The translations under genes and the position numbers were made by a program. From Flavobacteriales bacterium UBA4466 (lineage in GTDB: Bacteria; Bacteroidota; Bacteroidia; Flavobacteriales_D; Crocinitomicaceae): a DNA stretch of 64,000 nucleotides. The DNA lies in the NCBI GenBank assembly GCA_905182335.1, contig CAJJBE010000002.1, forward strand, positions 721,501 to 785,500, written 5' to 3'. Positions 28,583 through 62,874 of this stretch are shown in pieces; the stretch's first letter is position 1; every line of letters begins with the position of its first letter. The notes below the pieces were generated by a model. It was not told where the DNA came from and did no database searches. It saw nothing but the letters and a program-made list of their open reading frames with translations.

Positions 28583-28647
28583 GTGGAGTCGGAGGGAGAC
28601 TTATCGAACTTTTTGGAAGATGATTTAAAATTAATCACCAACTGTTA
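28583..28647 (+). other. Recombinase-tail / putative attachment sequence, copy A
   Basis: Identical to the last 65 bp before the SPFH operon in copy D (58986-59050), where it encodes the C-terminus of the serine recombinase (V-E-S-E-G-D-L-S-N-F-L-E...). Here no recombinase body precedes it: the flank is a T9SS-array remnant and two small hairpins. Interpreted as a recombination joint. Confidence 0.6.
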
Positions 28648-28992
28648 TTATTGCTTTGCTACAACTATATAATAGCTGATTAGGATAAAAACGAGCAGTA
28701 AAATGCCGTTTGTAATAATGTAAGCAACTTGGGAAAAAGGGAAGTAAACAAATCCAATATTACTTATTAGTGCAATAAAGAAAAAGACCATTGCAAGTGC
28801 TCTTACATTAGTACCTGTTCTTTTATAGTCATAAGAAACGCCTATAGCACTAATTAAAGTGACTGCCACAAACAGAAAACTTCCCAGCCCAATCAGTTCT
28901 TTATTTAGTCCGATTGTAAAAGAATACATACCAAATGCTATTAGCGCGGCCATTGCTAAGGCTATTAAAGCGGGAACAAATTTTAATTTCAT
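28648..28992 (-). CDS. Small four-helix membrane protein, last gene of the SPFH operon
   Basis: 114 residues with four hydrophobic segments ('LIALAMAALIAFGMYSFTIG', 'LGSFLFVAVTLISAIGVSY', 'LAMVFFFIALISNIGFVYF', 'IITNGILLLVFILISYYIVV'), short loops and no recognisable catalytic residues. Start ATG at 28992 lies 4 bp after the stop of the GYF gene, so translation is probably coupled. Function unknown; a membrane partner for the SPFH protein encoded two genes upstream is a reasonable guess. An identical copy lies at 59051-59395. Confidence 0.75.
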   Translation of the reverse strand: MKLKFVPALIALAMAALIAFGMYSFTIGLNKELIGLGSFLFVAVTLISAIGVSYDYKRTGTNVRALAMVFFFIALISNIGFVYFPFSQVAYIITNGILLLVFILISYYIVVAKQ

Positions 28993-28996
28993 AAGT

Positions 28997-29350
28997 TTAT
29001 TTAATACCCTCGAATGGAGGAGGTGAGAGAGCCACTAATTTTAATACTTCAGGAACGTTTTCAGCGATTTGCCAGTTCGACATACCCGGCATCCAAACAT
29101 GTGTTTCTTTAGCTACCTTTTTTTCTGTTATAAGTCTCGATAACTCTGATTCAGATAGGGGGCCAACTCTATTTCCTTCTATAACAGCGTAGAACAAACT
29201 TTGTTTCGGATGCTCCATTGGATTCATAGCACCGGGTACATGCATGCTTGTCATGCTCTCATTCATTGATTTCATCATTTGTTGTGCAATGCTCATACCC
29301 AAACCAAATTCGAGTAGTCGGTCCATTGAAAAAAAACTGTTATCGTCCAT
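28997..29350 (-). CDS. GYF_2-domain protein
   Basis: 117 residues. The N-terminal ~45 are Met-rich and amphipathic ('FGLGMSIAQQMMKSMNESM'). Residues about 50-105 are a GYF_2 (DUF4339) domain: 'LFYAVIEGNRVGPLSESELS', 'KETHVWMPGMSNWQIAENV'. GYF_2 domains bind Pro-rich peptides or tether partners; the SPFH protein upstream ends in a Pro-rich tail and has its own GYF_2 domain, so a direct interaction is plausible. Third gene in the operon, 86 bp after the SPFH gene with a terminator-like hairpin between. Identical copy at 59400-59753. Confidence 0.8.
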   Translation of the reverse strand: MDDNSFFSMDRLLEFGLGMSIAQQMMKSMNESMTSMHVPGAMNPMEHPKQSLFYAVIEGNRVGPLSESELSRLITEKKVAKETHVWMPGMSNWQIAENVPEVLKLVALSPPPFEGIK

Positions 29351-29378
29351 AATTCACAAGTTATACTGGTAAAAATTA

Positions 29379-29414
29379 GAGTACACTATGTTTCATTAGT
29401 GTACTCATTTGTTT
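29379..29414 (-). terminator. Terminator-like hairpin inside the SPFH operon
   Basis: 10-bp perfect arms gagtacacta (29379-29388) and tagtgtactc (29397-29406). On the leftward transcript the hairpin is followed by TAATTTTTACC, a weak T tract. It may attenuate transcription between the SPFH and GYF genes. Repeated at 59782-59817. Confidence 0.5.
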
Positions 29415-29436
29415 AATGATTAATATTCACTGTATA

Positions 29437-30801
29437 TCATATCGCAGGTGGGGGTGGTGGTCCAGATGGTGCTGGCGGTGGCGGTGGAACAGCTGCAAAT
29501 AATGAGCTGAGTTCTTCAACGGTACCCGCAATGGCCCATTCCGCCATTCCTTGCTTCCATACGTGAGTCTCTTTTGTTAACTGACCCCCTTGCACCATTT
29601 GTTGCATCTGCGGAAAACCAAACGGTCCACTTTGCTGTCCGCCTACAGAAATGCTATATTCTACAGTTGGTGTTGGGGGCGGTGTTTGATTTGGCTGATT
29701 CATGCCTCCCATCATTCCACCAATAGCTCCAGCCATTTGACCACCAACAGCTCCACCCATAGCCATACTAGCCATCATAGAACCAGGATCCATTCCTCCT
29801 CCAGAGCCTCCAGAACCTCCAGAGCCCATTTTCCCCATGCTTTCTGCTGCAGTTTTTGCAACATCCGTTTGTTGGTTTAATTGGTGAGCTCCCATATTTT
29901 GCCCTTCAGTTTGCAATTTCTGCGCGCGTTGCATCTCTTCTCGTTGAATACGCATTGTGTCTTGAGTGTTTTCAGCATTTATGCGCTGTGTGTCCTCAAG
30001 ATTCTTGATGCCTACATCAGTTTGAGCCTCAACAGTTTTTGTTGTTTGCTCTGCCGTAACTTTTCTCAATTCTGCGTATCCTTGAGCTTCTTTGTCAACG
30101 TCAATATCTGCGATGTCTAATGCTTTCATGTTAACCCCAAAGTCTCCTTCAAGGCGAGTGCCTAAATATTTTGCAACTAGATCATTGATATCTAGAATTT
30201 TTCGTTCCATTTGCAAAACTGGAATTTGATTATCAGATGGAATATTTGTTACAACGTGTTTAACATATTTTGTAACGGCATCCTTAATCTGCTTTTTGAA
30301 ATCATCCAATTCAAAATTGATCAAACGATTCAATTTAATAAAACCTTGTGGGTCGGTAACATTGAATGTTATAGTTCCTCGAACCGCCATCGGAACAGCG
30401 AAATCCATGAATCGTGGATCAAAAACATCGAAATACGGAATGCCAAATCTAATTTGAATGTTTCCAGATAAATTAATGAAATAAATCTCAGCTTGAAAAG
30501 GCGAAGCGCCTCCAAAACCAAGTCCAACAATTTTAGATAAGACAGGAAAGTTTGCCGTTTTTATTGTTTGATCGTGCGGACCTTCTATAAAGTCTTGATT
30601 TGAACCATCTTCTTGTTTATATACAAAGACAGCCATTTCACCATCTTTAACCCTTAGACTGCTTCCATAACGAATGGCATTCTCTTTTTTCGTTGAATTT
30701 GCTTCACCAGAAGGACGCCATTTCCATACTAAATACTCTTGTTCATCGCAGCGAATGACATCCATCATTCCGCCTTCTTCTTTTTTTCCAAATAATCCCA
30801 T
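29437..30801 (-). CDS. SPFH-domain protein with C-terminal GYF_2 domain ('virion core protein'-like)
   Basis: 454 residues. The N-terminal ~250 are an SPFH (YdjI/virion-core-protein) domain starting 'MGLFGKKEEGGMMDVIRCDE', with 'YLVWKWRPSGEANSTKKENA' and 'VPMAVRGTITFNVTDP'. A helical/coiled region (about 240-320) is followed by a Gly/Met-rich linker, a GYF_2 domain ('VEYSISVGGQQSGPFGFPQM', 'KETHVWKQGMAEWAIAG') and a Pro-rich tail. Relatives form oligomeric scaffolds at membranes. The TerB/zinc-ribbon gene ends 5 bp upstream. Copy 2 (59840-61204) differs only by Gly54Ser. Confidence 0.85.
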   Translation of the reverse strand: MGLFGKKEEGGMMDVIRCDEQEYLVWKWRPSGEANSTKKENAIRYGSSLRVKDGEMAVFVYKQEDGSNQDFIEGPHDQTIKTANFPVLSKIVGLGFGGASPFQAEIYFINLSGNIQIRFGIPYFDVFDPRFMDFAVPMAVRGTITFNVTDPQGFIKLNRLINFELDDFKKQIKDAVTKYVKHVVTNIPSDNQIPVLQMERKILDINDLVAKYLGTRLEGDFGVNMKALDIADIDVDKEAQGYAELRKVTAEQTTKTVEAQTDVGIKNLEDTQRINAENTQDTMRIQREEMQRAQKLQTEGQNMGAHQLNQQTDVAKTAAESMGKMGSGGSGGSGGGMDPGSMMASMAMGGAVGGQMAGAIGGMMGGMNQPNQTPPPTPTVEYSISVGGQQSGPFGFPQMQQMVQGGQLTKETHVWKQGMAEWAIAGTVEELSSLFAAVPPPPPAPSGPPPPPAI

Positions 30802-30806
30802 AATTT

Positions 30807-31535
30807 TTATTTAATTCCTATTTCTTTACCATATGCCATGATTTCTTCCAATGTTTTCTTGTCTTCTTTCATGGAGAATTTAGCTTTCATAATAATTTGT
30901 TCACATTTTGATTTCCATGTAGGAGCAAGGTCATTGTGAGATTTGTTTTCAGGTTGTTGCTTTGTAAATAAATTTCCTTTTTGTTTTGCATTCGGAAGAG
31001 CCGTCGATAAAAACTCGAGAATATCATCTTTTGTGTTAGGTATAGGGAATCCTGAAATGATAGACTTCTTCTTTAGTGTTACTTTATCTCCACCTCCATG
31101 AGCCTGAGCCATTAGACTACCAATAGCTCCAGTGATAGATGAAGATTGCTCTTTACGCTCACTTTCACAATCGTTCAGCAATTTAAATAATTTCTCAATA
31201 GAAACATTTGCTCCAACATTACTGAATTCATGACCACAATCAGGACATTTCGTTTTAAATGACTCCGCCATAGCACCGCAAGCCGGACATTTCTTAACAT
31301 CTCCAAATTTATCAGATTTAGGAGCGGCAGGAGCTGCTGGTTGCGCTGGAGGCGTCGCAATAGCTGCGTCAGCTTTATTCTTCGCAAATAATCTTGCCTC
31401 AAGAACCATTTCAAATTCGTCTAAATCGACGCCTAACCCTTCAGCTTTTTTAAATAGAACTTGTTTTTCTTTTTCGGTTAGCTCTCCATCCATAAGAGCC
31501 ATTTCAATAAGATTTTCTAATTGTTCGTTGTACAT
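30807..31535 (-). CDS. TerB-like helical domain plus zinc-ribbon protein, first gene of the SPFH operon
   Basis: 242 residues. N-terminal ~60 residues look like a TerB-like/short helical domain ('IEMALMDGELTEKEKQVLFK'), followed by an Ala/Pro linker, a zinc ribbon 'KKCPACGAMAESFKTKCPDC' with CxxC pairs, and a helical C-terminal half ending 'MAYGKEIGIK'. This domain combination is common beside SPFH proteins of the YdjI type and suggests an adaptor. Start ATG at 31535; the IS6 fragment end lies about 45 bp upstream, so the promoter may lie in IS-flanking DNA. Identical copy at 61210-61938. Confidence 0.8.
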   Translation of the reverse strand: MYNEQLENLIEMALMDGELTEKEKQVLFKKAEGLGVDLDEFEMVLEARLFAKNKADAAIATPPAQPAAPAAPKSDKFGDVKKCPACGAMAESFKTKCPDCGHEFSNVGANVSIEKLFKLLNDCESERKEQSSSITGAIGSLMAQAHGGGDKVTLKKKSIISGFPIPNTKDDILEFLSTALPNAKQKGNLFTKQQPENKSHNDLAPTWKSKCEQIIMKAKFSMKEDKKTLEEIMAYGKEIGIK

Positions 31536-31581
31536 AAGGTAGTAATTGTGTTGTTTATGATTTAGTTTAGTGTAAATTCTG

Positions 31582-31822
31582 GGTTCTGTCGCATCTGTTA
31601 GACAAGAATTTAAAAGTACAATTATTTTTTAATTCTAAGCGGCCAATGACATGAACGATTTAAACATAGTTTTATCTTGACCAATCAACTGATTTTTCTT
31701 AATCATTCTGACAATTTCAATTCCTGATAAGGTTCTTCTAGCAGATTCAAATTCTTTAAATCCCAAACCTTGCTGAATTCGCCATTTGATAAAACGGTTA
31801 TCTTGTTCTACTATATTGTTTA
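31582..31822 (-). mobile_element. IS6-family fragment (3' end and terminal repeat)
   Basis: Begins with the terminal repeat ggttctgtcgcat (31582) typical of IS6-family ends, then 53 bp to a transposase stop codon. It includes only the last ~62 codons of the transposase and stops abruptly at 31822, where unrelated lipoprotein-gene sequence begins. About 241 bp in all. Confidence 0.8.
31635..31822 (-). pseudogene. IS6-type transposase, C-terminal fragment
   Basis: Reads 'IVEQDNRFIKWRIQQGLGFK', 'FESARRTLSGIEIVRMIKKN' and ends 'FKSFMSLAA'. The Glu of the DDE triad lies in 'VEQD'; both catalytic Asp regions are missing. Upstream of 'NNIVEQD' the frame runs into antisense lipoprotein sequence, so it is a non-functional remnant. 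Confidence 0.85.
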
Positions 31823-32435: not shown

Positions 32436-32525
32436 GTGGAGTCGGAGGGAGGCTTCTCGAACTTTTTGGAGGGAGATATTGAGCTGTTGATGATTATGTT
32501 TTCCGCTATGCGTTAGAGGGTTTCA
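32436..32525 (+). other. Recombinase-tail / putative attachment sequence, copy B
   Basis: Begins gtggagtcggagggaggctt and encodes V-E-S-E-G-G-F-S-N-F-L-E-G-D before diverging; its last ~25 bp (ttccgctatgcgttagaggg) are shared with copy C at 39803. No recombinase body precedes it. Including the two bases before it, the complementary strand ends like a tRNA (CCGACTCCACCA). Confidence 0.6.
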
Positions 32526-39690: not shown

Positions 39691-39802
39691 AATTGTCAAA
39701 AATATTTATAGGAATCCTATTGTTCAGATGACGTACCGGTTTCAATTTGTACAGGCTCCGTACTTGCAGCTTTTTGTCTTATATATTGAGCATTAGTAGG
39801 TT

Positions 39803-39886
39803 GAGTCGGAGGGAGACTTATCGAACTTTTTGGAAGATGATTTAAAATTAATGATGATGATTTCCGCTATGCGTTAGAGGGTTTCA
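39803..39886 (+). other. Recombinase-tail / putative attachment sequence, copy C
   Basis: gagtcggagggagacttatc... follows copies A/D for about 55 bp (E-S-E-G-D-L-S-N-F-L-E-D-D-L-K-L-M), then switches to the ttccgctatgcgttagaggg end shared with copy B. It is therefore a hybrid of the A/D and B types, as expected of a recombination joint. Followed by a run of nine C. Confidence 0.6.
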
Positions 39887-40005: not shown

Positions 40006-40452
40006 ATGGAAATAACAATAAAACAAATCGGAGAAGGAGTACCTTACCATATCCGTTTTAAGAAAACTCAAGTGTACAAGAGAGTATTTGGACAAGAAGA
40101 ACAATTGATTGACGAATACATCCATGAGGACGGGGATGAAGATTTCTCTGAAGTATATTGGCTAGTTCAAGCAGGATTTGCTACTTGGTTCAACTTCAAC
40201 AAGATTGAAAGATTAGAACGACTTGGAGTTATTGACTATCATAAAACCATATTTATGGGAGACTTTGACTTTAACGGGGATGACGACATTGAATACGTTA
40301 CCAGTCACGCAGCAGACGGACAACCCGTATCGCTAACAATTCAGAAAAACAGACACGGACACATGGCAGACATCTTGATAACCTATCCTGACTGGTACTA
40401 TCGAGTTCACTTAGAAGCACCATTTTTTTTTAATAACATGAGAAACGTATGA
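40006..40452 (+). CDS. Hypothetical protein, single-gene cassette
   Basis: 148 residues, no signal peptide or membrane segment. Features: 'EDGDEDFSEVYWLVQAGFAT' and 'MGDFDFNGDDDIEYVTSH', strongly acidic loops that could bind calcium, and 'ADILITYPDWYYRVH' near the end. I do not recognise a family. Directly preceded by the core gcaacgttagccc (39976-39988) and followed by aaacgttaagc (40500-40510), the same type of boundary core as around the protease genes. Confidence 0.6.
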   Translation: MEITIKQIGEGVPYHIRFKKTQVYKRVFGQEEQLIDEYIHEDGDEDFSEVYWLVQAGFATWFNFNKIERLERLGVIDYHKTIFMGDFDFNGDDDIEYVTSHAADGQPVSLTIQKNRHGHMADILITYPDWYYRVHLEAPFFFNNMRNV

Positions 40453-40529
40453 CTGGCATCTTTGAGGACTGATAATGAGCAAAGCATATGCCATACATAA
40501 AACGTTAAGCATCAATAAAATAATTAATT

Positions 40530-41411
40530 ATGAGTATAATTACAGAAGCACAATTGGAGAAATTGGATGTCATAGAGAAATTCCAACTCAGGCGAAAATG
40601 TGCTGAGAATAATGACATTGAAAATCTCTTGACAATTGCAAAATATAACTTTAATAGTGGTTCAGCTGCAAGTAATGTAACAAACCTCCCAGAACTATGC
40701 TACTACTATGGTCGACTCCAACGAGGAGAAGAGTTAAAGTCATTGTTAAATGAAAAAAGCTTCCTTTATTTCATGTTGCCTGATTCTTGTAAAGAACTTG
40801 CTAAGCAATTATTTAATATAGGTTCTAAATTCCCTCATTTAAACGAAAACGAAGTGCAATTTTTAGAGGATAATTATTGTGATTCCAAAACATTTGAATT
40901 GTTTGATATAATTATGTTTGATTGTATTTTACTTCCTCGACCAATTAAAAAGTTCGACAAAGAGTCATTAAACATGGATAACAAAAATTTCTCTAAAGAA
41001 TTCTTGTTAGAAATTTACAGTTGTTTTTCAGAGAATGAAGGATTGGATGGAAGCTATGACAAATTATATGTCTACAGTAGAATCGAAAATAAAATAATTC
41101 AAAAGGAATATGAGCATCTTGGCATAGGTGAATGGTGTATAATGCAACCGATACTTTCAAATGAATTTTGGAATTTAATGAAGGAGAACTTTGGGGAAGA
41201 TTGTGCAAATGCCCTAACTAAGGAACTATGTTATGATGATGATGATTTGGAAGACTTTAGAAATCAGAATTTTTATCTGTTGGGTGCCGATAGTATAGAA
41301 GCAGCTGCGAGTAATTATTTTAAGGATTCGTCAACGGTCGTCGCTCTCAAGACACTGGTTGCCAAATTTTGGCTAGAAAAGATAAACTCCCAAAAAATAA
41401 ATCTAATCTGA
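40530..41411 (+). CDS. Hypothetical cytoplasmic protein
   Basis: 293 residues, mainly helical with a TPR-like or HEAT-like feel in the first 130 ('LDVIEKFQLRRKCAENNDIE', 'GRLQRGEELKSLLNEKSFLY'). Acidic patch 'CYDDDDLEDFRNQ' near residue 235. No signal peptide. Family not recognised. It sits right after a cassette-like core and is probably a stand-alone accessory gene. Confidence 0.6.
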   Translation: MSIITEAQLEKLDVIEKFQLRRKCAENNDIENLLTIAKYNFNSGSAASNVTNLPELCYYYGRLQRGEELKSLLNEKSFLYFMLPDSCKELAKQLFNIGSKFPHLNENEVQFLEDNYCDSKTFELFDIIMFDCILLPRPIKKFDKESLNMDNKNFSKEFLLEIYSCFSENEGLDGSYDKLYVYSRIENKIIQKEYEHLGIGEWCIMQPILSNEFWNLMKENFGEDCANALTKELCYDDDDLEDFRNQNFYLLGADSIEAAASNYFKDSSTVVALKTLVAKFWLEKINSQKINLI

Positions 41412-41461
41412 AACTCAAAAAGTAAGTGAATACATAACAAAATGAAATATTCAATTCCAAA

Positions 41462-41884: not shown

Positions 41885-41971
41885 TAATTGAAATTGGTTT
41901 TTTAAATTGTTGTCTTATTCAACAATAAAGCTACATTTTTTTTACCAATCATTTTTTGTTTAATTTAAACC

Positions 41972-43312: not shown

Positions 43313-46477
<3,165 letters not shown>

Positions 46478-46988: not shown

Positions 46989-47034
46989 AATTATTAATGG
47001 ACGATTTCATTAATTTTTGTATTATTAATTAACT

Positions 47035-48891: not shown

Positions 48892-48895
48892 ATAG

Positions 48896-50064
48896 ATGTT
48901 CTTTATTACCGAACCAGACATAAACTTCCGTATTAAAGGCTCAAGAGACCCTCTGGGTTTCCAGCCTATATGGCAAAAATTGGGTCGTAAGGTAATTAAG
49001 GATTTATCAACTGTATCTAGTAATATTCGAGATTTTCAATTGATGTCATTTGCATGGTATTTCTGGGGAGATAGGCCTGATAAAAATTTTATGGCTTTCT
49101 TTCTATAAATTCGAGCAAGCCTGCGCTTATACAAGAGAATTGTATTTCGAGAAAAGTGGTTACAACGGTAAAGGAATTCGTAAGTAAGCGAAGGAATGAC
49201 TTAAGCTTTAGATTGTCTACAAATAATGCTGACACCATATTAAGTAATCAAAAAACGTATGGGGTTTTTGGTAAATACAATCGTCCGTTTACTGAAATGC
49301 GAATTAAGTACCAAGATGATTTTATATCAGTTATGGAATCGGCCATTGACACGAAAACAGATTCAAAAAAACTCTTAGCGTTAGTGATAAGTTAATTACT
49401 GAGGATGTCGTAATTATTACGAAAGAGGAGTTGCAACCAATTGCTGATTTGTTAGCGGAATTATCTGATGAAGAAAAGCAATTTTATGAACGACTCATTC
49501 TGGAAACGCCAACACATAAATGTCAGAATGAACTCTATCATTTGTTTAAGAAAAATCCAGAATTAAGAGAAAATTCATTTCAATTATATCCGTTTATTGA
49601 ATCGGTATTAAAACATGATATAAGCACTCGAGTTAAAAGCATGTTTGGTAGAGATAAAAAACACGGAAAGCGTACTTTACGCTTACGCGAATCTGTTTCG
49701 GCATTTGCAAAGCAGGCCGGTTTGGCAATTGCGAGAGATAAACGCAGCAGGAGATATTTAATTACTTCCCTAAAAAGCAAGATTATGTCTTCGGAAAATC
49801 TGCAGTTTTAATTTTAAATGAAGAATTAGAATCACTAGCAGAAGATAAGTCAAAAATAGCATTGGCTGCCGTAAATAGGAATGAAACGGTGAGTAAAAGA
49901 AGAAACAATTCGCTTGGATAAAACAGGAAAAAGGAAAACTAGTGCGTTACTACGCAGATGGTGGTCGAGAAATATCCAAATTGGATGTTAACAATGCCTA
50001 TGAGAATAATTACTTTATTCCTACTTACATCAGTTTGTTTAATCAAATAGATCCTGTTACATGA
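48896..50064 (+). pseudogene. Unknown conserved protein of the PLD/SNF2 operon, frameshifted
   Basis: Pieces at 48896-49108, 49156-49395, 49431-49811 and about 49800-50064 read as one ~385-residue protein: 'FFITEPDINFRIKGSRDPLG', 'FQPIWQKLGRKVIKDLSTVS', 'NADTILSNQKTYGVFGKYNR', 'LLAELSDEEKQFYERLIL', ending 'NYFIPTYISLFNQIDPVT' with a TGA that overlaps the PLD gene ATG. I recall proteins with this opening beside PLD and SNF2-helicase genes in defence contexts but cannot name the family. At least three frameshifts and a stop in the 49.9-kb region. Confidence 0.6.
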
Positions 50065-52082
50065 AAACAGGAATACTCATAGAAGAATTAAAGGAACGCA
50101 TGGCTGGCCAAAAGGTGAAGAGCAGCCTTTTTTACTCGTTTAATTTCGATGCTCGTTTTTTTGAGAATTACATTCTTACTCAGTTTCTTTCGGATGTATC
50201 GTTTTCCAACAATGAGATTCAAAATGCAATCCTTTGGAAAAAGTACCAGAATGAGCTGCCACCAATAACTGTTTTTTGTGATTTTCATGCTAAAGGAACA
50301 ACAGGTCCTAGTTTAGCTTACAATGTTGTGCCCATTGCTTGGCCGTAAAAAGTCTGGAAGAAAACCTTGTTTTCATCCAAAGCAATCTTATATTTTACTC
50401 GAAGATTGGAGTTTAATTGTAATAGGAGGTTCTAACAATATTACACAATCAGCATGGTGCTCCAATATTGAGTGTGTTAACGTATTTCATTTTACCCCAT
50501 CATGCGAATGAAAATATAAGATACTTCCCAAGAACGCTAAAGGATAGATTTAAGCATTTGTGCAGGAATGTGCGCAGGGATGTTTTAACAAAAGAGCATA
50601 TTACTGAATCAGAGCAGAGTAATAGAAAGCTTTTTTAGTTCTATTAAATATACGGAGGAGGCAGAAACTCTATTCTTTAACAGTGGTGAAGAAATTAGAA
50701 CCTATCAAGAAAAGAAAGATGGCCTTCGCTCTTTTGATGTTTTTATAGATGGAATCAAACAAAAGTACAATGGTGGCGAACCCTTTGTAAAGGCAGAGGT
50801 TATCTCTCCATATTATTCTACAGGATTAAACCATTTTAATTCCTTAAGTGAGGTCCTCGGAACAGATCAAATTAAATTTTCAGTTCCTTTCGAAAATACA
50901 GATTACGTAGCCTTGGATGAAAGTATCTACAGGGATATAGAAGAAAGCTATGGATGGGGAAGATGCAGTTTTGATAACGGAAAAGCATTTCGATTTAATC
51001 ATAGTAAAGTTTACAGATTGCTCGGCAACCAAACGATGGTTAGTATAGTGGGTTCTGTAAACTGCACAGATGCAGCCTTTAGAGGAGTTGCTGATGGAGG
51101 CAATTACGAAACAGCTATTGCTTATGTTGATGATGCTGCAAAGTGGGTAGATCAATTAGAGGAAGTTGATGACGGCTCGTTTACATTTACAGAAGCCAAA
51201 GAAGAGGAGGGCTATGAAGATAACCGCATAGATGCTTTTAATCTTGAGTTTACCATAAATTGGAATGAATTAATGCTAACCGTAAAGAATAATAAGCCAA
51301 CTAAACAGAAAGGTCGAATAGTTTTAGAGGGTGTCTCTGATAAATATTTAAGCGATACTAAAACTATTACAACTATAATACTTACTCCTGAATTAGTCGC
51401 AATATTCGCAGACAATAGTTTGATAAAATTTAAACCAAGTGGAATAGATGGGTACTTGTATTATTACCCTACTCAAGTAGGAATCGAGCTAAAGCCATTC
51501 AGCTCGAAATACAACTTGAACGATGTCGAATTGCTAGAATTATGGCAAGAGCTGGACGAGGCAAATGATAAAGAATCGATGGGCAGATTGATAGATAGAT
51601 TCGTAGATCGTATTACTGATGAATTTGAGGAGGAGAAAGAGGATGAATTAGATGCAGCTAAAAGCTCCATAAACTTTATGGCTTCTCATTTATCTGGCTT
51701 ATTAAAATTGAAGGAAAAACTCTTCATGGAGCTACATAGGAAAACCGATCAAGAGATTCAAAAAAGGCGTATTTCATATTATTTATTATCCGACAACATT
51801 GACACATTAATTGGCTACCAAAGATTGATTGGTAAAATGAAAAAAAACGGTAGTATTAACATTGGTTTTTACTGGGTACTGTTAAAAATAATTGAAACGT
51901 ATTTCTACAAAAACAAAGAGGCTTCTAAAAGATTGGCTTCCGCTGAACTTAAAACATTGAAGAAATTAGCTTCATTAGTTACCAAGCAAATTAAGGTGGT
52001 GGATAAAGAGATGTTGGAGCAGGGCGTTGAAAGACGAAAACTGGAATGGTTAAATAAAACTTTGCTGTATGATTTTAAGTGA
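50061..52082 (+). pseudogene. Phospholipase-D-superfamily nuclease-like protein, frameshifted
   Basis: A ~670-residue protein in at least four frames (50061-50348, 50323-50511, about 50510-50636, 50640-52082). Two HKD-like sites are visible: 'CFHPKQSYILLEDWSLIVIG' with 'GSNNITQSAW', and 'FNHSKVYRLLG' with 'GSVNCTDAAF'. Both keep H-x-K and the G-S-x-N, the PLD nuclease signature. The C-terminal ~300 residues are helical/acidic and of unknown function. The start overlaps the preceding gene (ATGA) and the end overlaps the helicase by 14 bp. At least three indels, so inactive as read. Confidence 0.75.
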
Positions 52083-55064
52083 GCAGGAAGCAAGGAAAAT
52101 AATCAATCTTAATCCGAAAGTATTAATAGATGTTGATATTGCTGAACGTCAATTTGAAGTGATTGTAAAAGGGTTTAATCATTTAAACCAAAGCAAGAAT
52201 AACTTTCTATACATAGCCGATGAAGTTGGTTTAGGGAAGACATATGTAGCTCTGGGGATAGCTTCACTATTAAGACATTTCTCAAGTAATAAAGAACATT
52301 ACAAAGATTGCATCATTGTTCCTAAAAAGAACCTTCAATCAAAATGGAGAAAGGAGCTTAGAAATTTCATTTCTAACAATTACCTATTGGAATGCAACAT
52401 AGTTAAAACACCACTGGGTACTTCCGTTGGTTTATGTGAAGATGAGAATATTCATCCGAGATTAGAATATGTTGATCGGGAAAATCCTTCTTATGAAATA
52501 TTCCGAAATTCATCCTTTAGTATTTCTGCTAGTAGTGATGATTGGAAGCTCAAATTACTTGACCAATTACCAGAGTCAGTTGCCTATATATTTAAGGCGG
52601 CTATAAAGCGTTTTAGATATAATGAAGGAGAGGTTATGTTGCGCAGACTATATGCGTACCTGCTTAATATAACCATGCCTGATTTTGATCTGCTAATTGT
52701 TGATGAAGCGCATAATTTCAAGCATGGAATAGAAGGTGATGTATCGTATAGAAACCAAGTTGTAAGTCGATTGATGGGGGTGATTTATGCAGAAGATGAA
52801 GCCATTTTTAATGAGTTCCCCGAACTAAAAGAGAAACTAAAGCCGCTTTCAGGTAAAGTGATTTTACTATCAGCTACTCCTTTGGATAACGGAGTTTATG
52901 AAATTGCGAACCAGCTCGATTGTTTTTTACCCAATCACCCGTATCGTAATCTTGAAGCTGAGCTTAAATCCAAACGATTAAAAGCAGATCTAGGAACGTT
53001 TATGATTCGTGGTGTGATGAACATCAAGTTAAGTGGTGAGTCTATGAGTAGGAATCGCTATAGGCATGAACATAGAAATGGTAACGTACTTAAGGAAATT
53101 GATGCACCTGTTCAAACCATATCAGATCCATTTGATGCTGCAATGATTGCAATGCTGCAATTTAAAACGCTCGAGCAGATAAATAGCTCCAAAAACAATT
53201 CTTTTGAGATTGGTATGCTGGCTGGTTTTGAATCATTCAAGATAGCGGAAGCCAATGATAAAGAGTTTGAAGATTCAAATAAGCGAGATCAAAATCAATC
53301 GGTTGATGCCAATGTAATATCGAGTATTGCGAATTCTTATTATCGATGAATTCAAACAATACCTTCCGCATCCAAAACAAGACAACCTGGTTACCGAGGT
53401 TTACAACGAAATGTTGAAAGGCAATAAATCGTTGATTTTTGTAAGGAGGATTGCATCGGTTAATGAACTAGAAAAGCGAATGATTCATTTGTTTGAAGAA
53501 AATCAGGCGAAGAAAATTGACCTTTACAAGAGGCAAGGAAATCAGATTATTTCTAAAATGCTAAAAGCATTCCACTCAAGAAAAGATGCGATTGCCGAAA
53601 GTGATATACTTGATTTGGCCTCATCGAGATTGAAAGAATATCATTTCAATCAATTAGAAGTTCATATTCCTCACAAAGAATGGCCTATTGAACTTAGATG
53701 AGATAAAACAAAGATTGATTGATTTACTGGATCATGTTTCGGGTACTGAATTAGGAGATAAACTAGATGCTCAGTTAAAAGGACACCTTAGCCGGTCAAC
53801 AATTCGTTCGAAGTACCGTGAATTGCTTTTCGATTTGATTCAGGAGTTTTCGAATTGGAAAAACACAGATGAATTGGCTGATGGTGAGAAAGAAGAGCAA
53901 ACGAGGTATTTTTTCCTAAATTATTTTAGTAGCAAACAGTATATTGAAGGATACCGTTTTAAAAAGAGATTGACTACTAAAGATTGGTTTAGATATAACT
54001 ACTATTACCTAACAGAGATAGAAGGTCTTGGAATCAAAGGCAAAGAATTTAATTTACCTGTTTCATATGATGAGAAAGTAAAAACGGAAGCGAATAGAAT
54101 AGACTTTATTAACGATAGGATAATAGAATCGCTTGCAATAAGTGGAATAGGGGTCGAAGTGGATGAGAGTTACAAGAAAAGAACATTTTTCAACTGTCTT
54201 TTCGATGGGGTTTTACATAAAGAATTTGAGAATTGGATTGATGAAAAATGGAAATCTAATGACCTTGAGTATTTAATAGTTGAGCTGAATACTTTACAGG
54301 AAATTTTAAGAGGAGTTTTTAGAAACGGTTCTGGTCTATTACCCTGTTTTATTGCTGATGCCCATGACGGAGAATTCGAGGAAGTCATAATTCAAGTATT
54401 AAAAGATTCGTTTCCTGAAGTAATAGAAGAAATCAGAACGATTTTGATTGATTTTGATAAAATCGTCTCCGTTAATTTCTCCGATAGATCAAAGATTAGA
54501 TACGCAATGTACAATCAGGCTCCTGTTGTTCCGGCAAGTGGCGAGCACAGTAAAGATGTTAGTGGAATTGCCACTCAGTTTAGAATGCCGGGGTTTCCTT
54601 ATGTAGTTATTACTACGGATGTATTGAAAGAAGGTGAAGATTTACATACTTATTGTTCCGATATATATCATTATGGGATTGCTTGGAACCCTTCTGATAT
54701 GGAACAAAGAACGGGTAGGATAGATAGAATTAACTCCAAGAGTTATTTCAAGTTAAAAGAAGCGAAAGAAGTGACGTTTGATAATTCTCTGCATGTTTTT
54801 TATCCTTATTTATCGGACACATTGGAGGTAAATCAGGTTGCTAAGGTCTTTAAAAAGATGAACGCTTTTATTGATACTTTTTATGATGTCACAATCAAAA
54901 TTGAAAAGGAATCAACCACTTCTTCCGATGAAATAGTTAGCCATATACCGCCTCAAATTAAAAGGCAACTTAGTTCAAAATATGATTATGACACCTTTGA
55001 GATTGAATATGATTCAAAGGAACAGCTAGAAATATTGCAGGGTACAGGAGTATCAAGGGAATGA
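52069..55064 (+). pseudogene. SNF2-like superfamily 2 helicase, two frameshifts
   Basis: Three frames (52069-53349, 53327-53701, 53688-55064) join into a ~998-residue helicase. Motif I 'YIADEVGLGKTYVALGIASL', motif II 'LLIVDEAHNFKHG', motif III 'VILLSATPLDNG', then in the last piece 'VVITTDVLKEGEDLHTYCSD' and motif VI 'PSDMEQRTGRIDRINSK'. This is the RapA/HepA-like layout seen in DISARM-, Dpd- and other defence-associated helicases. The shifts lie near 53335 and 53690; both would need only a single-base change to restore the frame. Confidence 0.82.
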
Positions 55065-55077
55065 CTTAAAAAATATT

Positions 55078-55410
55078 ATGTTGACGCTGCAAAATTCCAT
55101 TAAATCTAGTTATGATGGTTTTGTTGTAGATCCTAAGTTAAGCGTTGATGGTTTAAGATTGTCGGGTAATGTAATTGTGAATAATAGGAGAGGCCCTTTT
55201 AAAGTGACATTCATCAAGGGGAAAGCATTTAGCGAAATGTCTATTGTAATTGACTCTATTATTTCTAAATCAGCTGAGATTAGACGAAAGTCCGATAGAG
55301 AAGATATACAGGATTTATTGTCTAAAGAAAATTTACTCTTAGTAGAGGAGAGTGAACTTCTTCTTACAAGAGGATTGTATAATATCAATACTTCGAACTT
55401 CAGAATCTAA
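55078..55410 (+). CDS. Small protein at the end of the PLD/SNF2 operon
   Basis: 110 residues, 13 bp after the helicase. 'LTLQNSIKSSYDGFVVDPKL', 'VNNRRGPFKVTFIKGKAFSE' and a helical C-terminus. No recognised family. Tight spacing says it belongs to the operon; its intact frame contrasts with the three decayed genes before it. Confidence 0.6.
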   Translation: MLTLQNSIKSSYDGFVVDPKLSVDGLRLSGNVIVNNRRGPFKVTFIKGKAFSEMSIVIDSIISKSAEIRRKSDREDIQDLLSKENLLLVEESELLLTRGLYNINTSNFRI

Positions 55411-56336: not shown

Positions 56337-57260
56337 ATGACAAACGGACAGGACAAGGATTTAGAAAAGCTATTGGCAAGTGGAAAGCACCTTGCTGCTA
56401 CGTATCCAGATATTTTTAAAGAAATTAATGAACCAAGATATTCTATTGGTGACATTGGATTAAATTCTCGGGTATTAAATTATTGGGAGAAAAAAGGTCT
56501 TTTTTTAAAAGAACATGATCCAAGAAAAAGGAAAAAATTTGATTTGGTTGATTCCGTATGGATGAAAATGATTCAAAAGCTGCGACAATTTGATATATCA
56601 TTGGTCGCGATAAATAACATAAAGAACCTGCTTGTCAGTAGGCCTGAAATTAATGAATCAAATAAGGATGCGATAGAAAAAGTTGTATTGGATTTGTGTT
56701 CAGAAGATGACCGGGTTGCAGCACGTTTGTTTGTGCAATCAAAAGAATTTTCCACTATGATGGAAAAGATAGAGCTAAATCTTCTTCAAGTCGTGGTCAT
56801 GGATGTAATTCTTCTAAGAAATCAATACAGCTTTTTGATTAATGCAGAGGGCGAATTGATGCCGTTTAAGATTAATGAACTTGAATTTTTAATGCAACAG
56901 GAAGAATGGAGAAAATTATTCTCCAATTCGCATGTGTCTATTTCAGTGAACGAATTGTTAGAGGGTTTAGTTCATGAGCTTGGGGAGGTAGAAGCTTCCA
57001 ATGTTAAGATCTTAAGTGAGGATGAGATGCAAGTGCTAAGCGCATTAAAGGAAGATGGAGTTAAAACAGTGGAGATTAATATTTCTCAAGACGGTAGTAG
57101 AAAGGCAGAGAAAATCATTTTAACAAAAAGTGAGGCTATAGATGGCTCGAAAAGAATGAGTGAATTAATGCTCAGAAATAAATATGAGGATATCACAGTT
57201 AAATCCGAGAATGGAAAGATTGTCTATTGCGAACGAAAAGAAAAACGAAAATTAAACTAA
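56337..57260 (+). CDS. MerR-type helix-turn-helix protein of the recombinase module
   Basis: 307 residues. A winged-helix MerR-type domain lies at about 35-105: 'PRYSIGDIGLNSRVLNYWEK', 'KGLFLKEHDPRKRKKFDLVD' and 'IQKLRQFDISLVAINNIKNL'. The C-terminal ~200 residues are unrecognised and probably helical. It sits just upstream of the small overlapping gene and the serine recombinase, so it may control recombinase expression or act as a directionality factor (inference). No metal-binding cysteines of classical MerR regulators. Confidence 0.7.
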   Translation: MTNGQDKDLEKLLASGKHLAATYPDIFKEINEPRYSIGDIGLNSRVLNYWEKKGLFLKEHDPRKRKKFDLVDSVWMKMIQKLRQFDISLVAINNIKNLLVSRPEINESNKDAIEKVVLDLCSEDDRVAARLFVQSKEFSTMMEKIELNLLQVVVMDVILLRNQYSFLINAEGELMPFKINELEFLMQQEEWRKLFSNSHVSISVNELLEGLVHELGEVEASNVKILSEDEMQVLSALKEDGVKTVEINISQDGSRKAEKIILTKSEAIDGSKRMSELMLRNKYEDITVKSENGKIVYCERKEKRKLN

Positions 57261-57340: not shown

Positions 57341-57511
57341 TTGAAAAATAAAAAGTGTAAACAGATTTTAGAATCTGACGGTAACAAATACAGTAATGAA
57401 GAAGCTCAACTTATAACAGGGTTTCTATTGAAATTGGCAGAGAATACGGTCAATAATTTTAAAAGCCCCATCAATGAAAAAAGCGATAATAATGGCTCGG
57501 GTATCGAGTGA
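57341..57511 (+). CDS. Small protein overlapping the recombinase start
   Basis: 56 residues from TTG 57341: 'MKNKKCKQILESDGNKYSNE', 'EAQLITGFLLKLAENTVNNF', 'KSPINEKSDNNGSGIE'. Proteins of this shape ('..C..IL...G..YS.EE...I..FL..LAE') often precede site-specific recombinase genes in Bacteroidota to my recollection. It overlaps the recombinase by 38 bp in another frame, suggesting coupled translation. Confidence 0.6.
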   Translation: MKNKKCKQILESDGNKYSNEEAQLITGFLLKLAENTVNNFKSPINEKSDNNGSGIE

Positions 57512-59075
57512 TGAGCAAGCGAAGGGATATTCTCTTGGGATTCAAGAGGATTCTTTGCGTAAGCATTGTGAAGTCAATAACATTGAAATAGTCCAGGCTT
57601 TTAAAGAGGATCATTCTGCAAAGAATTTTGACCGTCCTGAATGGCAGAAGTTGTTAAAGTATCTGCGTTCAAATAGAAAGAATGTAGATTACGTATTATT
57701 TACTTCATGGGATAGATTTTCTAGAAATATCACTGATGCTCTTATTCAAATTAGAAATCTAAAGAAATTAGATGTAGAAATTAGGGCTATAGAACAACCA
57801 ATTGATATTAGCATTCCTGAAAACAAGGCTATACTCGCCATGTATTTGGCGATGCCTGAAATTGATAACGACAGAAGATCAATAAAAATACGCGGAGGTG
57901 TTCGTGCAGCTCTCAAATCAGGTCGTTTATCTCGAATGGCTCCAAGAGGCTATAAGAATGTTAGGGACGAGAATAATAAGCCGCTCATTGTTCCATCTGA
58001 AAATGCAAAGTATATCAAGCACTTATTCAAAGAGGTAGCAAAGGGTAGAACCCAGGCTGAGATTAGGGAGGAACTTAAATTAAAGGGGTTTACTATTAGC
58101 TGTAATGGTTCATCTGTTATTCTACGAAACGAAATCTACATGGGAAAAGTCGTTGTTCCAGCAGAAGGTGACGAACCCAGAGAAGTGATAGAGGGAATAC
58201 ACAATGGAATTGTAAGTGAAAAGCTCTTCTATAAGGTTCAGGAATTACTTGAAATTAATTTAATCGAAAGAAATAAACCGAAAGCGATGACACGCAAGGA
58301 CAACTTGCCCTTGCGTGGTTCTGTGCGTTGTTCTAAATGTCAGAAAAAAATGACAGGAAGTGGGTCAAGGGGTAAACTTGGTAAAAAGTATTTCTATTAC
58401 CATTGCAATGAATGCGGTGACGAAAGATATAGGGCAGAGAAGGCCAATAAATTAATGGAAGAAGTATTGGCTCAGTTTAAGTTTAAAAAGGGCGTAGTCA
58501 AGCTCTATGAGGAACTAGTGACGTATATCTACAAGCATAATGACAAAGACAACACCGGAGACTTGATAAAATTGAAGAAATCTATTGATAAGCAGAAATC
58601 AAGAATTAATAATCTTCAGGATTTACTAATGGATGGGGTAGTGGATCAGGATGCGTTTCAATCTATGAATAAACGTTACAAAGATGAGCTGATTGTGTTG
58701 CAAAATAAACAGCATAATTTGAGTTCAAATAAGCTCAATTTGACCAAATATTTGCGAAAAGGAGTGGGTGTTCTTTCAAAAATGTCGAACCCCTACAAAG
58801 CCTCATCAGTACTGGGGAAGCAGCAGATTCTGAAAGCAATCTTTCCCTTTGACTTCGAAATCGTAAATGAAAAATGTCGAACCCCGCGAATCAATGAGGT
58901 GCTACGTCTAATGCTTAGTATTGACGGGGATTCTGGGAAAATAAAAAAGGGAGAACTCTTTAAAAATTTAGAGCTCTCCCTTTCAGTGGAGTCGGAGGGA
59001 GACTTATCGAACTTTTTGGAAGATGATTTAAAATTAATCACCAACTGTTATTATTGCTTTGCTACAACTATATAA
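57474..59075 (+). CDS. Large serine recombinase
   Basis: 533 residues. Resolvase catalytic domain with the nucleophile Ser in 'ARVSSDEQAKGYSLGIQEDS' and 'FTSWDRFSRN'; recombinase domain from about 150; zinc ribbon 'VRCSKCQKKMTGSGSRGKLG', 'YYHCNECGDE'; coiled coil about 355-420. Intact, so potentially active. The final ~30 codons lie in repeat copy 2: from 58986 the C-terminus is the A/D variant 'SEGDLSNFLEDDLKLITNCY', whereas the second tail at 62806 encodes a different end. The native C-terminus is therefore uncertain. Large serine recombinases catalyse one-way attP x attB integration. Confidence 0.9.
   Translation: MKKAIIMARVSSDEQAKGYSLGIQEDSLRKHCEVNNIEIVQAFKEDHSAKNFDRPEWQKLLKYLRSNRKNVDYVLFTSWDRFSRNITDALIQIRNLKKLDVEIRAIEQPIDISIPENKAILAMYLAMPEIDNDRRSIKIRGGVRAALKSGRLSRMAPRGYKNVRDENNKPLIVPSENAKYIKHLFKEVAKGRTQAEIREELKLKGFTISCNGSSVILRNEIYMGKVVVPAEGDEPREVIEGIHNGIVSEKLFYKVQELLEINLIERNKPKAMTRKDNLPLRGSVRCSKCQKKMTGSGSRGKLGKKYFYYHCNECGDERYRAEKANKLMEEVLAQFKFKKGVVKLYEELVTYIYKHNDKDNTGDLIKLKKSIDKQKSRINNLQDLLMDGVVDQDAFQSMNKRYKDELIVLQNKQHNLSSNKLNLTKYLRKGVGVLSKMSNPYKASSVLGKQQILKAIFPFDFEIVNEKCRTPRINEVLRLMLSIDGDSGKIKKGELFKNLELSLSVESEGDLSNFLEDDLKLITNCYYCFATTI
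58946..58983 (-). terminator. Hairpin within the recombinase 3' end, terminator for leftward transcription
   Basis: aaagggaga (58946-58954) pairs with tctcccttt (58975-58983), with further inner pairing. On the leftward strand it is followed by TTTTTTATTTT, a good intrinsic terminator for the SPFH operon reading in from the right. It lies inside the recombinase coding sequence, 2 bp before the attachment-like motif, and recurs before copy E (62766-62803). Confidence 0.65.
58986..59050 (+). other. Recombinase-tail / putative attachment sequence, copy D
   Basis: Identical to copy A. Here it is translated as the end of the intact recombinase gene. It lies exactly at the repeat boundary, so the join recombinase/SPFH island was made at or near this sequence. 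Confidence 0.6.
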
Positions 59076-59395: not shown

Positions 59396-59399
59396 AAGT

Positions 59400-59753: not shown

Positions 59754-59839
59754 AATTCACAAGTTATACTGGTAAAAATTAGAGTACACTATGTTTCATT
59801 AGTGTACTCATTTGTTTAATGATTAATATTCACTGTATA

Positions 59840-61204: not shown

Positions 61205-61209
61205 AATTT

Positions 61210-61938
61210 TTATTTAATTCCTATTTCTTTACCATATGCCATGATTTCTTCCAATGTTTTCTTGTCTTCTTTCATGGAGAATTTAGCTTTCATAATAATT
61301 TGTTCACATTTTGATTTCCATGTAGGAGCAAGGTCATTGTGAGATTTGTTTTCAGGTTGTTGCTTTGTAAATAAATTTCCTTTTTGTTTTGCATTCGGAA
61401 GAGCCGTCGATAAAAACTCGAGAATATCATCTTTTGTGTTAGGTATAGGGAATCCTGAAATGATAGACTTCTTCTTTAGTGTTACTTTATCTCCACCTCC
61501 ATGAGCCTGAGCCATTAGACTACCAATAGCTCCAGTGATAGATGAAGATTGCTCTTTACGCTCACTTTCACAATCGTTCAGCAATTTAAATAATTTCTCA
61601 ATAGAAACATTTGCTCCAACATTACTGAATTCATGACCACAATCAGGACATTTCGTTTTAAATGACTCCGCCATAGCACCGCAAGCCGGACATTTCTTAA
61701 CATCTCCAAATTTATCAGATTTAGGAGCGGCAGGAGCTGCTGGTTGCGCTGGAGGCGTCGCAATAGCTGCGTCAGCTTTATTCTTCGCAAATAATCTTGC
61801 CTCAAGAACCATTTCAAATTCGTCTAAATCGACGCCTAACCCTTCAGCTTTTTTAAATAGAACTTGTTTTTCTTTTTCGGTTAGCTCTCCATCCATAAGA
61901 GCCATTTCAATAAGATTTTCTAATTGTTCGTTGTACAT
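61210..61938 (-). CDS. TerB-like/zinc-ribbon protein (copy 2)
   Basis: Product identical to 30807-31535. First gene of the second operon copy, with the IS6 end 46 bp upstream, exactly as in copy 1. Thus the IS insertion predates the duplication. Confidence 0.8.
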   Translation of the reverse strand: MYNEQLENLIEMALMDGELTEKEKQVLFKKAEGLGVDLDEFEMVLEARLFAKNKADAAIATPPAQPAAPAAPKSDKFGDVKKCPACGAMAESFKTKCPDCGHEFSNVGANVSIEKLFKLLNDCESERKEQSSSITGAIGSLMAQAHGGGDKVTLKKKSIISGFPIPNTKDDILEFLSTALPNAKQKGNLFTKQQPENKSHNDLAPTWKSKCEQIIMKAKFSMKEDKKTLEEIMAYGKEIGIK

Positions 61939-61984
61939 AAGGTAGTAATTGTGTTGTTTATGATTTAGTTTAGTGTAAATTCTG

Positions 61985-62463
61985 GGTTCTGTCGCATCTG
62001 TTAGACAAGAATTTAAAAGTACAATTATTTTTTAATTCTAAGCGGCCAATGACATGAACGATTTAAACATAGTTTTATCTTGACCAATCAACTGATTTTT
62101 CTTAATCATTCTGACAATTTCAATTCCTGATAAGGTTCTTCTAGCAGATTCAAATTCTTTAAATCCCAAACCTTGCTGAATTCGCCATTTGATAAAACGG
62201 TTATCTTGTTCTACTATATTGTTTAAGTATTTACATTTCCTGATTCTAATTCTTGATTTTGTTGCTAATGCGCGTTTGTTATAAACCCGAATGGCACTTG
62301 AATTTGAACCGCTTTTGTCTATGTTTATCACTCGAGGTTTTCCATTATGCTCAATTGCCTTTATCAAAAAACTTTGGGCTGACATACGCTGTCTTCTTTT
62401 GGTTAATAGAAAGTCTACTGTATTTCCTTCCTTGTCAACGGCTCGATACAAATAACGCCACTC
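61985..62463 (-). mobile_element. IS6-family element, 5'-truncated
   Basis: Terminal repeat ggttctgtcgcat at 61985, then the transposase gene up to about 62463, where a second, different terminal repeat begins. The first ~90 codons and the outer end are missing, so this element cannot move by itself. No 8-bp target duplication found. Confidence 0.8.
62038..62463 (-). pseudogene. IS6-type transposase, N-terminally truncated
   Basis: About 140 residues: 'WRYLYRAVDKEGNTVDFLLT', 'KRRQRMSAQSFLIKAIEHNG', 'RVINIDKSGSNSSAIRVYNK' (second Asp of DDE), 'YLNNIVEQDNRFIKWRIQQG' (Glu) and the end 'SLAA'. The N-terminal HTH and the first catalytic Asp ('DETY' region) are lost. It is the longest IS6 transposase remnant in the window. 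Confidence 0.85.
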
Positions 62464-62614
62464 GGTTCTGTCGCATTAATTATTTTTCGACCATTTTTCA
62501 TCAAATTCCTTGAATGTTCAAAAAGTTAACTCACATTACTTCAACGGTTTATGATTTTTCGTTTTGTATGAATTAGGCTTCAAATAGTGATTTTTTAGTT
62601 AATGCGACAGAACC
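62464..62614. mobile_element. 151-bp MITE-like element with IS6-type ends
   Basis: Perfect 16-bp inverted terminal repeats ggttctgtcgcattaa (62464-62479) and ttaatgcgacagaacc (62599-62614) enclose 119 bp without a reading frame. It abuts the truncated IS6 on the left and the recombinase tail on the right. It may be an internally deleted IS mobilisable in trans. No target duplication visible (cgccactc left, acaaagcc right). Confidence 0.6.
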
Positions 62615-62874
62615 ACAAAGCCTCATCAGTGCTGGGGAAGCAGCAGATTCTGAAAGCAATCTTTCCCTTTGACTTCGAAATCGTAAATGAAAAATGTCGA
62701 ACCCCGCGAATCAATGAGGTGCTACGTCTAATGCTTAGTATTGACGGGGATTCTGGGAAAATAAAAAAGGGAGAACTCTTTAAAAATTTAGAGCTCTCCC
62801 TTTCAGTGGAGCAGGAGGGAGGCTTCTCGAACTTTTTAGAGGGAGATTTGGAGTTGTTGATGCGACTGATATGA
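62613..62874 (+). pseudogene. 3' tail of a second serine recombinase
   Basis: Encodes 'KASSVLGKQQILKAIFPFDF' to 'LSVEQEGGFSNFLEGDLELL' and 'MRLI'. It matches 58792-58985 almost base for base (one clear difference, tcagtg versus tcagta), then carries a different attachment-like end. The body of this recombinase has been removed up to the IS6-type terminal repeat at 62614. Confidence 0.85.
62806..62872 (+). other. Recombinase-tail / putative attachment sequence, copy E
   Basis: gtggagcaggagggaggctt..., related to copy B in its 'ggcttctcgaac' core but with gcagg instead of gtcgg. It ends the truncated recombinase with stop TGA. The following ~200 bp to 63074 hold no gene. Confidence 0.55.

Follow-up and report, generated by a model that had tools for sequence, protein, structure and literature searches.

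Putative attachment sites of stacked islands at ssrA, and a Bacteroidota clade of large serine recombinases whose genes end at tRNA and tmRNA genes

The stretch analysed here (the window) comprises 64,000 nucleotides of Flavobacteriales bacterium UBA4466, of the family Crocinitomicaceae (assembly GCA_905182335.1), and corresponds to positions 721501-785500 of contig CAJJBE010000002.1, hereafter C2. It encodes a large serine recombinase with the domains PF00239 (3.9e-25), PF07508 (6.8e-12) and PF13408 (1.5e-06), and it holds five copies, A to E, of a 14-bp core, GTGGAGTCGGAGGGA, a sixth copy of which (F) follows beyond the window. We consider it highly probable that A-F are the attachment (att) sites of islands that a serine recombinase, with tRNA or tmRNA genes (tDNA) as its targets, has serially integrated into the tmRNA gene ssrA at its 3′ end. 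The features that bear on this proposal are the following, the att assignments being putative.

18475..21083, + strand: host gene pair, left limit of the variable region; orthologs lie downstream of ssrA in the related genomes G122, G121 and G130
28583..28617, + strand: att site A, shared core and P′ right half, with a left flank ending in a small hairpin
28579..31822, - strand: island left-end module, a 99.9% repeat of 58981-62225
32436..32470, + strand: att site B, both flanks of which are also present in the related genome G142
39800..39834, + strand: att site C, with a hybrid right half (A/D type, then B type)
57474..59075, + strand: large serine recombinase (Resolvase, Recombinase, zinc ribbon), the last codons of which cross att D into the next segment
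58877..58882, + strand: internal TCGAAC, with codons and spacing conserved in the recombinase family
58942..58980, - strand: terminator-like hairpin and T run inside the recombinase tail, recognised from sequence
58986..59020, + strand: att site D, recombinase tail (P) and P′, an attP-like junction of stacked islands
62615..62805, + strand: 3′ tail of a lost recombinase, 96% identical to the recombinase end at D
62806..62840, + strand: att site E

Core copies and the ssrA junction

The core is exact at 28583 (A), 32436 (B) and 58986 (D), and recurs at 39800 with one mismatch (C, where the base at core position 3 is changed) and at 62806 with two (E); this count of five compares with a mean of 0.06 expected and was reached in none of 100 shuffles. 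The five motif copies of the original prediction, made from the letters of this DNA, are all real, C starting at 39800 and not at the 39803 given there. In each of them TCGAAC starts 21 bp after the core start, the point at which TCGAACTTTTTGGA begins as well (with one mismatch in E).

Cores A and D head the two copies of a 3,245-bp repeat (28579-31822 and 58981-62225, 99.9% identical), in agreement with the common right flank predicted for them, and C is indeed the hybrid that had been proposed, A/D-like over 53 bp (98%) and B-like from there on. The right flank of E had been taken for unique and turns out to be 89% identical to that of B over 57 bp. Both D and E had been read as coding ends of recombinases; D does end a complete open reading frame (ORF), 57474-59075, whereas at E there is a 235-bp 3′ fragment (62615-62849), 96% identical to the recombinase end at D (58795-59029). 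This remnant starts exactly at the end of an inverted repeat, beside a transposase fragment of the IS240 type of insertion sequence (IS).

The sixth core, F, lies at C2:793856, 8.4 kb past the window, behind a second recombinase that is 100% identical to that of the window over 509 matched residues. C2 ends at 793872, three bases after core F, with the stop of the second recombinase ORF off the contig, and its end overlaps that of another contig, C6, by 69 identical bp, the core hit on C6 being the F junction seen from the ssrA side. Because C6 runs from the recombinase tail through core F into the 3′ end of ssrA, as identified by ARAGORN, the core is, on the sequence as assembled, the 3′ end of ssrA, and the array has its right end there, at an intact tmRNA 3′ end. 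Beyond ssrA, C6 carries ORFs that we take to be recR and smpB. The hairpin-bearing recombinase tail of D also abuts ssrA at F, where a contig break is expected because the sequence is repeated. The sites A to F stand in direct order with different flanks, as in a tandem array.

Relatives were compared through 20 stretches fetched from 19 genomes, several of them short or cut by contig ends, and 14 window proteins. The host gene pair at 18475-21083 is present in three of these stretches, all from the same genus, and its nearer gene lies 294 bp (G122), 8.0 kb (G121) and 12.7 kb (G130) from ssrA, so that the ~51 kb from 21083 to F are variable DNA. G134 has the next genes inward (5.6 kb), G150 has a match to ORF 21586-22452 only, on the other side of ssrA, and the remaining fetched stretches gave no match to any of the 14 window proteins. 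In G142, of the same genus, the left flank of A (143 bp, 86%) is joined directly to the ssrA core, and the B site with both its flanks (160 bp, 88%) lies 2.2 kb further from this join; copies of the recombinase tail stand at ssrA in G150 (97%) and G120 (85%). The joins in these three genomes look like those made by site-specific exchange at the core, and comparison establishes the junctions, ssrA as the target and a shuffling of flanks in a relative. The ssrA site is empty or nearly so in G122 and G142. The original prediction had read the core copies as att scars of stacked islands, a view supported by ssrA at the right end of the array and by the joins in relatives, and had looked to an empty site for confirmation; such a site was found in part, in the join of the A left flank to ssrA in G142 and in the gene pair 294 bp from ssrA in G122.

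A recombinase 99% identical to that of the window is found at ssrA in another genus (G212), and the match of a recombinase end next to ssrA in another genus, 96% over 3.4 kb, indicates horizontal transfer. Three loci (L343, L358 and L361) show ssrA core copies of another class, which have a second core copy 110-120 bp away and whose common right half (GTTTATCTCGACTCAGCAAAAGC or similar) differs from the other P′ halves.

In the explanation that we propose, the integrase of such an island would be the large serine recombinase encoded at its ssrA-side end, with the gene pointing at ssrA, so placed that its last codons would form the new ssrA terminator and continue into the antisense strand of ssrA. 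This recombinase would catalyse the integration. F would be attR (recombinase tail and ssrA), A looks like attL (old flank and island left end), and D would be an attP-like junction between the tail of one island and the left end of the next. B and C would bound segments that lost, or never had, such an integrase, and E would be the remnant of an island truncated beside an IS.

A recombinase family ending at tRNA and tmRNA genes

Among 240 genomes of the same bacterial family (Crocinitomicaceae), 30 have a homologue of the window recombinase at 1e-60, with 38 matches, 30 of which were taken as loci. To these were added the D copy of the window, the best 80 of 532 relatives in named genomes, and 29 further loci from 395 genomes of the phylum (40 with a match), which gives 140 loci, or 132 after removal of copies (D and F were both kept, as two sites). 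R9, V10 and S11, the last presumably the nucleophile serine, are invariant in 18 aligned recombinase rows. At 91 of the 121 eligible loci, that is, those that extend at least 200 bp downstream and whose match reaches query residue 420, ARAGORN finds a convergent tRNA or tmRNA gene whose 3′ end lies at the 3′ end of the recombinase gene; as controls, no locus has a tDNA within 240 bp upstream of the recombinase (0/118) or in the same orientation downstream (0/121). The targets are of 13 kinds, with 27 anticodon or tag types: Arg 30, Leu 16, tmRNA 9, Met 8, Ser 6, Lys 5, Glu 4, Pro 4, Val 3, Phe 2, Asn 2, Ala 1 and Gln 1. Of the 91 recombinase frames, one stops before the tDNA, 63 stop within it and 27 past it, and the C-terminal tails of the recombinases vary because the tDNA antisense strand is read as protein. 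Comparison thus establishes a habit, common to the recombinase family, of ending at tRNA and tmRNA 3′ ends; moreover, in 21 of the 30 loci without an ARAGORN gene the hairpin is followed, as judged by eye, by the ssrA core or by a 3′ end resembling that of a tRNA or tmRNA gene.

The hairpin itself is nearly constant. At 92 of 93 loci (the 91 above and two with a tDNA but little sequence beyond) the recombinase tail contains, immediately past the tDNA end and on the strand of the tDNA, a hairpin of at most -8 kcal/mol in 50 nt plus a run of at least four T; a control stretch of these recombinase genes has the two in 3 of 93 cases. From this frequency the island would supply a new terminator, replacing that of the gene it enters.

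On a tree of 104 labelled rows (a quick tree, with long branches), target kind requires at least 44 changes, against a mean of 64.9 and a lowest value of 57 in 200 label shuffles; it therefore clusters but switches often. Two close recombinases of one genome (L121 and L122) stand at tRNA-Arg(ccg) and tRNA-Arg(tct), a pair that would represent a recent target change. A single origin of tDNA use was not shown by the tree, on which the state of tDNA or none needs 35 changes, array-internal and truncated loci being scored as none. At a tRNA-Arg(tct) island (G048), homology ends at the tRNA 3′ end in 7/7 same-genus genomes read, and same-genus genomes gave no clean empty site or precise left junction for this island. 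Phage and plasmid collections gave no recombinase match at 1e-30. PF07508 recombinases were tried as a clean negative control for tDNA use and failed as such, since 11 of 22 loci outside the clade (A1) end in tDNA; A1 was drawn by score, by eye, and 30 of 63 matches were taken as loci, plus L021 (one of the 63), the third recombinase of the window's genome, which lies outside the clade at tRNA-Arg(acg).

It is extremely improbable that the cores belong to a dispersed repeat that has nothing to do with the recombinase, such as IS ends, and of which the tail happens to hold one copy: IS240-type fragments do lie within the array and A/D is a 3.2-kb duplication, but the core is present, among the matches listed, in at least 132 of the 240 family genomes (once in 108), 24 of the 42 copies read in 19 multi-copy genomes are intact ssrA ends, members of the recombinase family elsewhere end at other tDNAs with other cores, and such a repeat, which the original prediction had named as its refutation, is rejected in view of the confinement of the 14-bp core to the array and ssrA in this genome and of the ssrA-end copies in relatives.

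The array could also have been built by a tyrosine integrase using ssrA, with the serine recombinase as a passenger, which we find very unlikely. ssrA and tRNA genes are common targets of tyrosine integrases (PMC4383910), and the right halves of some additional ssrA cores, found in other genera, are unrelated. However, the left half of D, E and F is the serine recombinase tail itself, the junction of tail and tDNA recurs with a matching terminator in the 91 of 121 family loci, and the +5 offset of the half-sites, described below, fits serine integrase sites.

Several observations weigh against serial integration by a tDNA-using serine recombinase. Six of the loci without an ARAGORN gene have no tDNA-like end by eye (L050, L154, L215, L217, L219 and L220), and three have doubtful ones (L030, L130 and L187). 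Ending in tDNA is not unique to the clade, as it is found in 11 of the 22 more distant Bacteroidota serine recombinase loci. The join of F to ssrA depends on an overlap of contig ends within a repeat whose tail occurs three times, and the 7.5 kb from the host gene to A (21083-28583) hold no core among the best-scoring sites. Finally, the case for integration and excision by the recombinase is entirely comparative.

The T-loop word in half-sites and in the integrase gene

What would the recombinase recognise in so many different genes? The cores read comprise four of this genome and 42 of the 19 other genomes listed with at least two copies, in which they lie on 37 stretches. T(C/T)GAA stands at index 16 from the core start in 24 of 24 intact ssrA cores. 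Among the 22 other exact cores it stands at index 21, shifted by +5, in six (A, B and D of this genome and cores of G073, G125 and G154), and the inexact cores C and E also have index 21. In the ssrA group, A-E carry a 14-bp core and a shifted TCGAAC, which may represent a displaced tDNA fragment.

Upstream of 56 islands at other tDNAs we searched for tDNA-like starts combined with TCGAA, at shifts of -10 to +20 (31 shifts), in 20-100 kb of sequence for 13 of the islands and about 10 kb or less for the rest. When the first 7 tDNA bases had to be exact, all three matches were at +5. Eight bases with one mismatch gave five matches at +5 and single ones at 0, 13, 19 and 20; nine bases with one mismatch gave three at +5, one at 0 and one at 20; ten bases with two mismatches gave four at +5, two at -10 and one each at 0, 19 and 20. 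The five +5 sites belong to four islands; two of them share the island at tRNA-Arg, and the other three lie in islands at tRNA-Ser, tRNA-Phe and tRNA-Leu. A long tDNA repeat as the mark of the far end was rejected, having appeared in 1 of 59 cases by plain search. A longest-match scan of 14 islands (13 with tDNA) yielded 11-17 nt or none, versus 11-16 nt or none in controls, and the single 17-nt match, in G048 at a distance of 37 kb, corresponds to an internal part of the tRNA and not to its 3′ end.

In A118-type integrases the zinc-ribbon motif occupies positions 16-24 of attP and is shifted 5 bp towards the centre in attB (PMC3783163). A candidate motif placed 5 bp further out in attP than in attB is also what we find, in the six other exact cores at index 21 as against the ssrA cores, and in the +5 peak at other tDNAs. 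On the simplest reading, the zinc-ribbon motif of the clade would be TTCGAAC, the word that tRNAs and tmRNA carry in the T-loop. The zinc-ribbon domain would read the word TCGAAC, which is found in nearly every tRNA and tmRNA, crossover would take place near the tRNA 3′ terminus, and short acceptor-stem differences would then select the tRNA, letting the family switch targets easily.

Some of the same data count against this role of the T-loop. Five of the 22 other exact cores have the unshifted index 16, and eleven have no T(C/T)GAA within the index range 12-30, in two cases (F of this genome and one core of G105) because a contig end cuts the sequence short. The 56 islands gave just five distal half-sites, and the far-end tDNA copy of the plain search, 1/59, had a control of 2/118. 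It is rather unlikely, but not negligibly so, that serine-integrase islands at tDNA leave the T-loop unread, TCGAA deriving from tRNA content and the +5 being an accident of lineage. The T-loop index in tDNA (16-19) is set by tRNA structure, the +5 outside the ssrA group rests on those five distal sites, and unshifted and motif-less cores exist; yet the five sites span four islands with Arg, Ser, Phe and Leu targets, and TCGAAC is kept codon by codon in the recombinase gene, as follows.

Over 152 well-conserved columns of 130 recombinases, the strongest synonymous biases fall on four columns. At residue 469 of the window protein, Arg is encoded by CGA in 115 of 116 cases (background 14%). Ser is TCG in 98/107 in the column of residue 455 (background 12%; the window protein has Ala there), Gly is GGT in 89/91 in the column of residue 454, and Ser is TCC in 105/110 at residue 502, within the terminator. 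The bias is retained among the 73 rows of less than 60% identity (CGA 62/63, TCG 50/55, GGT 44/46). The codons GGT TCG ... CGA ACC spell GGTTCGA ... TCGAACC, an inverted pair of the T-loop word; GTTCGA and TCGAAC are 43 bp apart, start to start, in 87 of 131 rows, which makes the pair about attP-sized. An in-gene TCGAAC precedes the tDNA at 85 of the 93 tDNA loci; its distance from the tDNA word is exactly 125 bp, or about 12 helical turns, at 79 of the 85 (the other six spacings are 114 twice, 115, 121, 1209 and 1223). In the window, the distance from the TCGAAC at 58877 to core D is 109 bp, and that to the TCGAAC of the P′ half of D is 130 bp (125 + 5); the inverted partner GTTCGA is missing.

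The in-gene words might act in the mRNA, as a hairpin, or through codon pausing, rather than as a DNA site. We hold this to be unlikely, though of some weight, as the two hexamers are complementary and CGA and TCG are minority codons here. Against it, five of six sister-clade rows (L271, L275, L278, L284 and L286, not L021) keep TCGAAC at the 125-bp spacing while lacking an inverted partner 43 bp before it, which argues against an mRNA hairpin as the cause of the conservation; the words are fixed and do not covary, and the in-gene word is identical to that of the att site. As DNA, the internal pair would possibly be a bound accessory site, a means of autoregulation or a decoy. Our tentative proposal, which we regard as an open possibility with the balance slightly against it, is that a phylum-wide clade reads the T-loop word TTCGAAC, giving it access to essentially any tRNA or tmRNA gene, and binds an internal resolvase-like accessory site. 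We know of no large serine integrase that has such a site.

Known systems and other features of the array

Like phiC31, Bxb1 and the A118/LI integrase (PMC3783163), the recombinase has Resolvase, Recombinase and zinc-ribbon domains, is encoded at one end of its element and has a candidate attP motif 5 bp further out than that of attB; unlike them, the clade targets tRNA and tmRNA 3′ ends and has an in-gene copy of the putative recognition word, and its ssrA group has 14-bp identity between sites. With the tRNA and tmRNA islands of tyrosine integrases collected by Islander (PMC4383910) it shares the target at the tDNA 3′ end, a new downstream end supplied by the element and the formation of arrays, but the enzyme here is a serine recombinase and a plain search found a tDNA copy at the far end in 1/59. 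Serine recombinases also integrate in tRNA genes in the actinomycete integrative and conjugative elements (AICEs) of Mycobacterium (tRNA-Leu) and phage phiRSM1 (tRNA-Ser) (PMC3218068); compared by integrase type and target, these have one isotype each, and the clade described here has 13 kinds across the phylum. In the integrative and conjugative elements (ICEs) of Streptococcus with a serine integrase at rumA (PMC4701971), the 3′ ends of integrase and target are likewise exchanged and the integrase C terminus is changed; their target is a protein gene, whereas the integrase here reads into tDNA antisense. Arrays formed by accretion of cis-mobilizable elements (CIMEs) and ICEs (PMC5704250) are similar in having stacked elements with common att sites and decayed ones without integrase; unlike the array here, the worked example uses tyrosine integrases.

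As far as their available text goes, island surveys limited tDNA targeting to tyrosine integrases (PMC4383910, 2015), two Mycobacterium surveys associate tRNA sites with tyrosine integrases (PMC8092301, PMC10654092), and Ghinet 2011 (PMC3218068), which cites phiRSM1 and contributes eight mycobacterial elements at tRNA-Leu, describes serine tRNA targeting as rare. Among the matches listed from the open-access literature there was no paper on a tRNA-targeting serine integrase clade in Bacteroidota; the TIGER and Islander data sets may contain such islands unremarked. A clade with 13 target kinds would alter how islands are found in Bacteroidota, and most bacterial genomes would contain att sites for it. 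With the many target changes inferred for them, its serine integrases would also form a natural series from which the link between protein and att site could be read directly.

Three further features belong to the array.

40006..55410, + strand: cargo of segment C-D, decayed in look (selected ORFs only)
56337..57260, + strand: MerR-type DNA-binding protein, by domain match; a neighbour of the recombinase in part of the family
61978..62614, - strand: IS240-type transposase fragment and inverted repeats, at the end of which the tail before E begins

Of the 132 loci, many of which hold only 1.5 kb of upstream sequence, 19 have a MerR-type homologue ahead of the recombinase, at a distance of 217-260 bp in 17 loci and of 743 and 860 bp in two; the MerR-type protein is a candidate directionality factor or regulator. 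The left-end module encodes GYF and SPFH+GYF proteins and a weak zinc-ribbon match, below the curated cut-off (Pfam). Among the selected ORFs of segment C-D, pieces resemble DpdF, a PD-(D/E)XK (Agave Cas4-like) nuclease and SNF2/Helicase_C proteins, so that 40006-55410 appears to hold decayed candidate defence genes, including a split helicase. No Pfam match to conjugation genes was obtained among 28 selected ORFs, a part of those of the array. The region 21083-28583, perhaps an older island, contains a 262-bp direct repeat (26227-26488 and 28045-28297, 93.5%). The A/D repeat enters the same IS240-type transposase fragment at 62038-62451 and 31635-31889 (Pfam match for the first only), after which the copies diverge. 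Elsewhere in the order, the ssrA island of uncultured Flavobacteriales AC_MB370 (L112) carries, at 1-1086 and 3283-4245, ORFs that by eye resemble a reverse transcriptase and an ADP-ribosylglycohydrolase.

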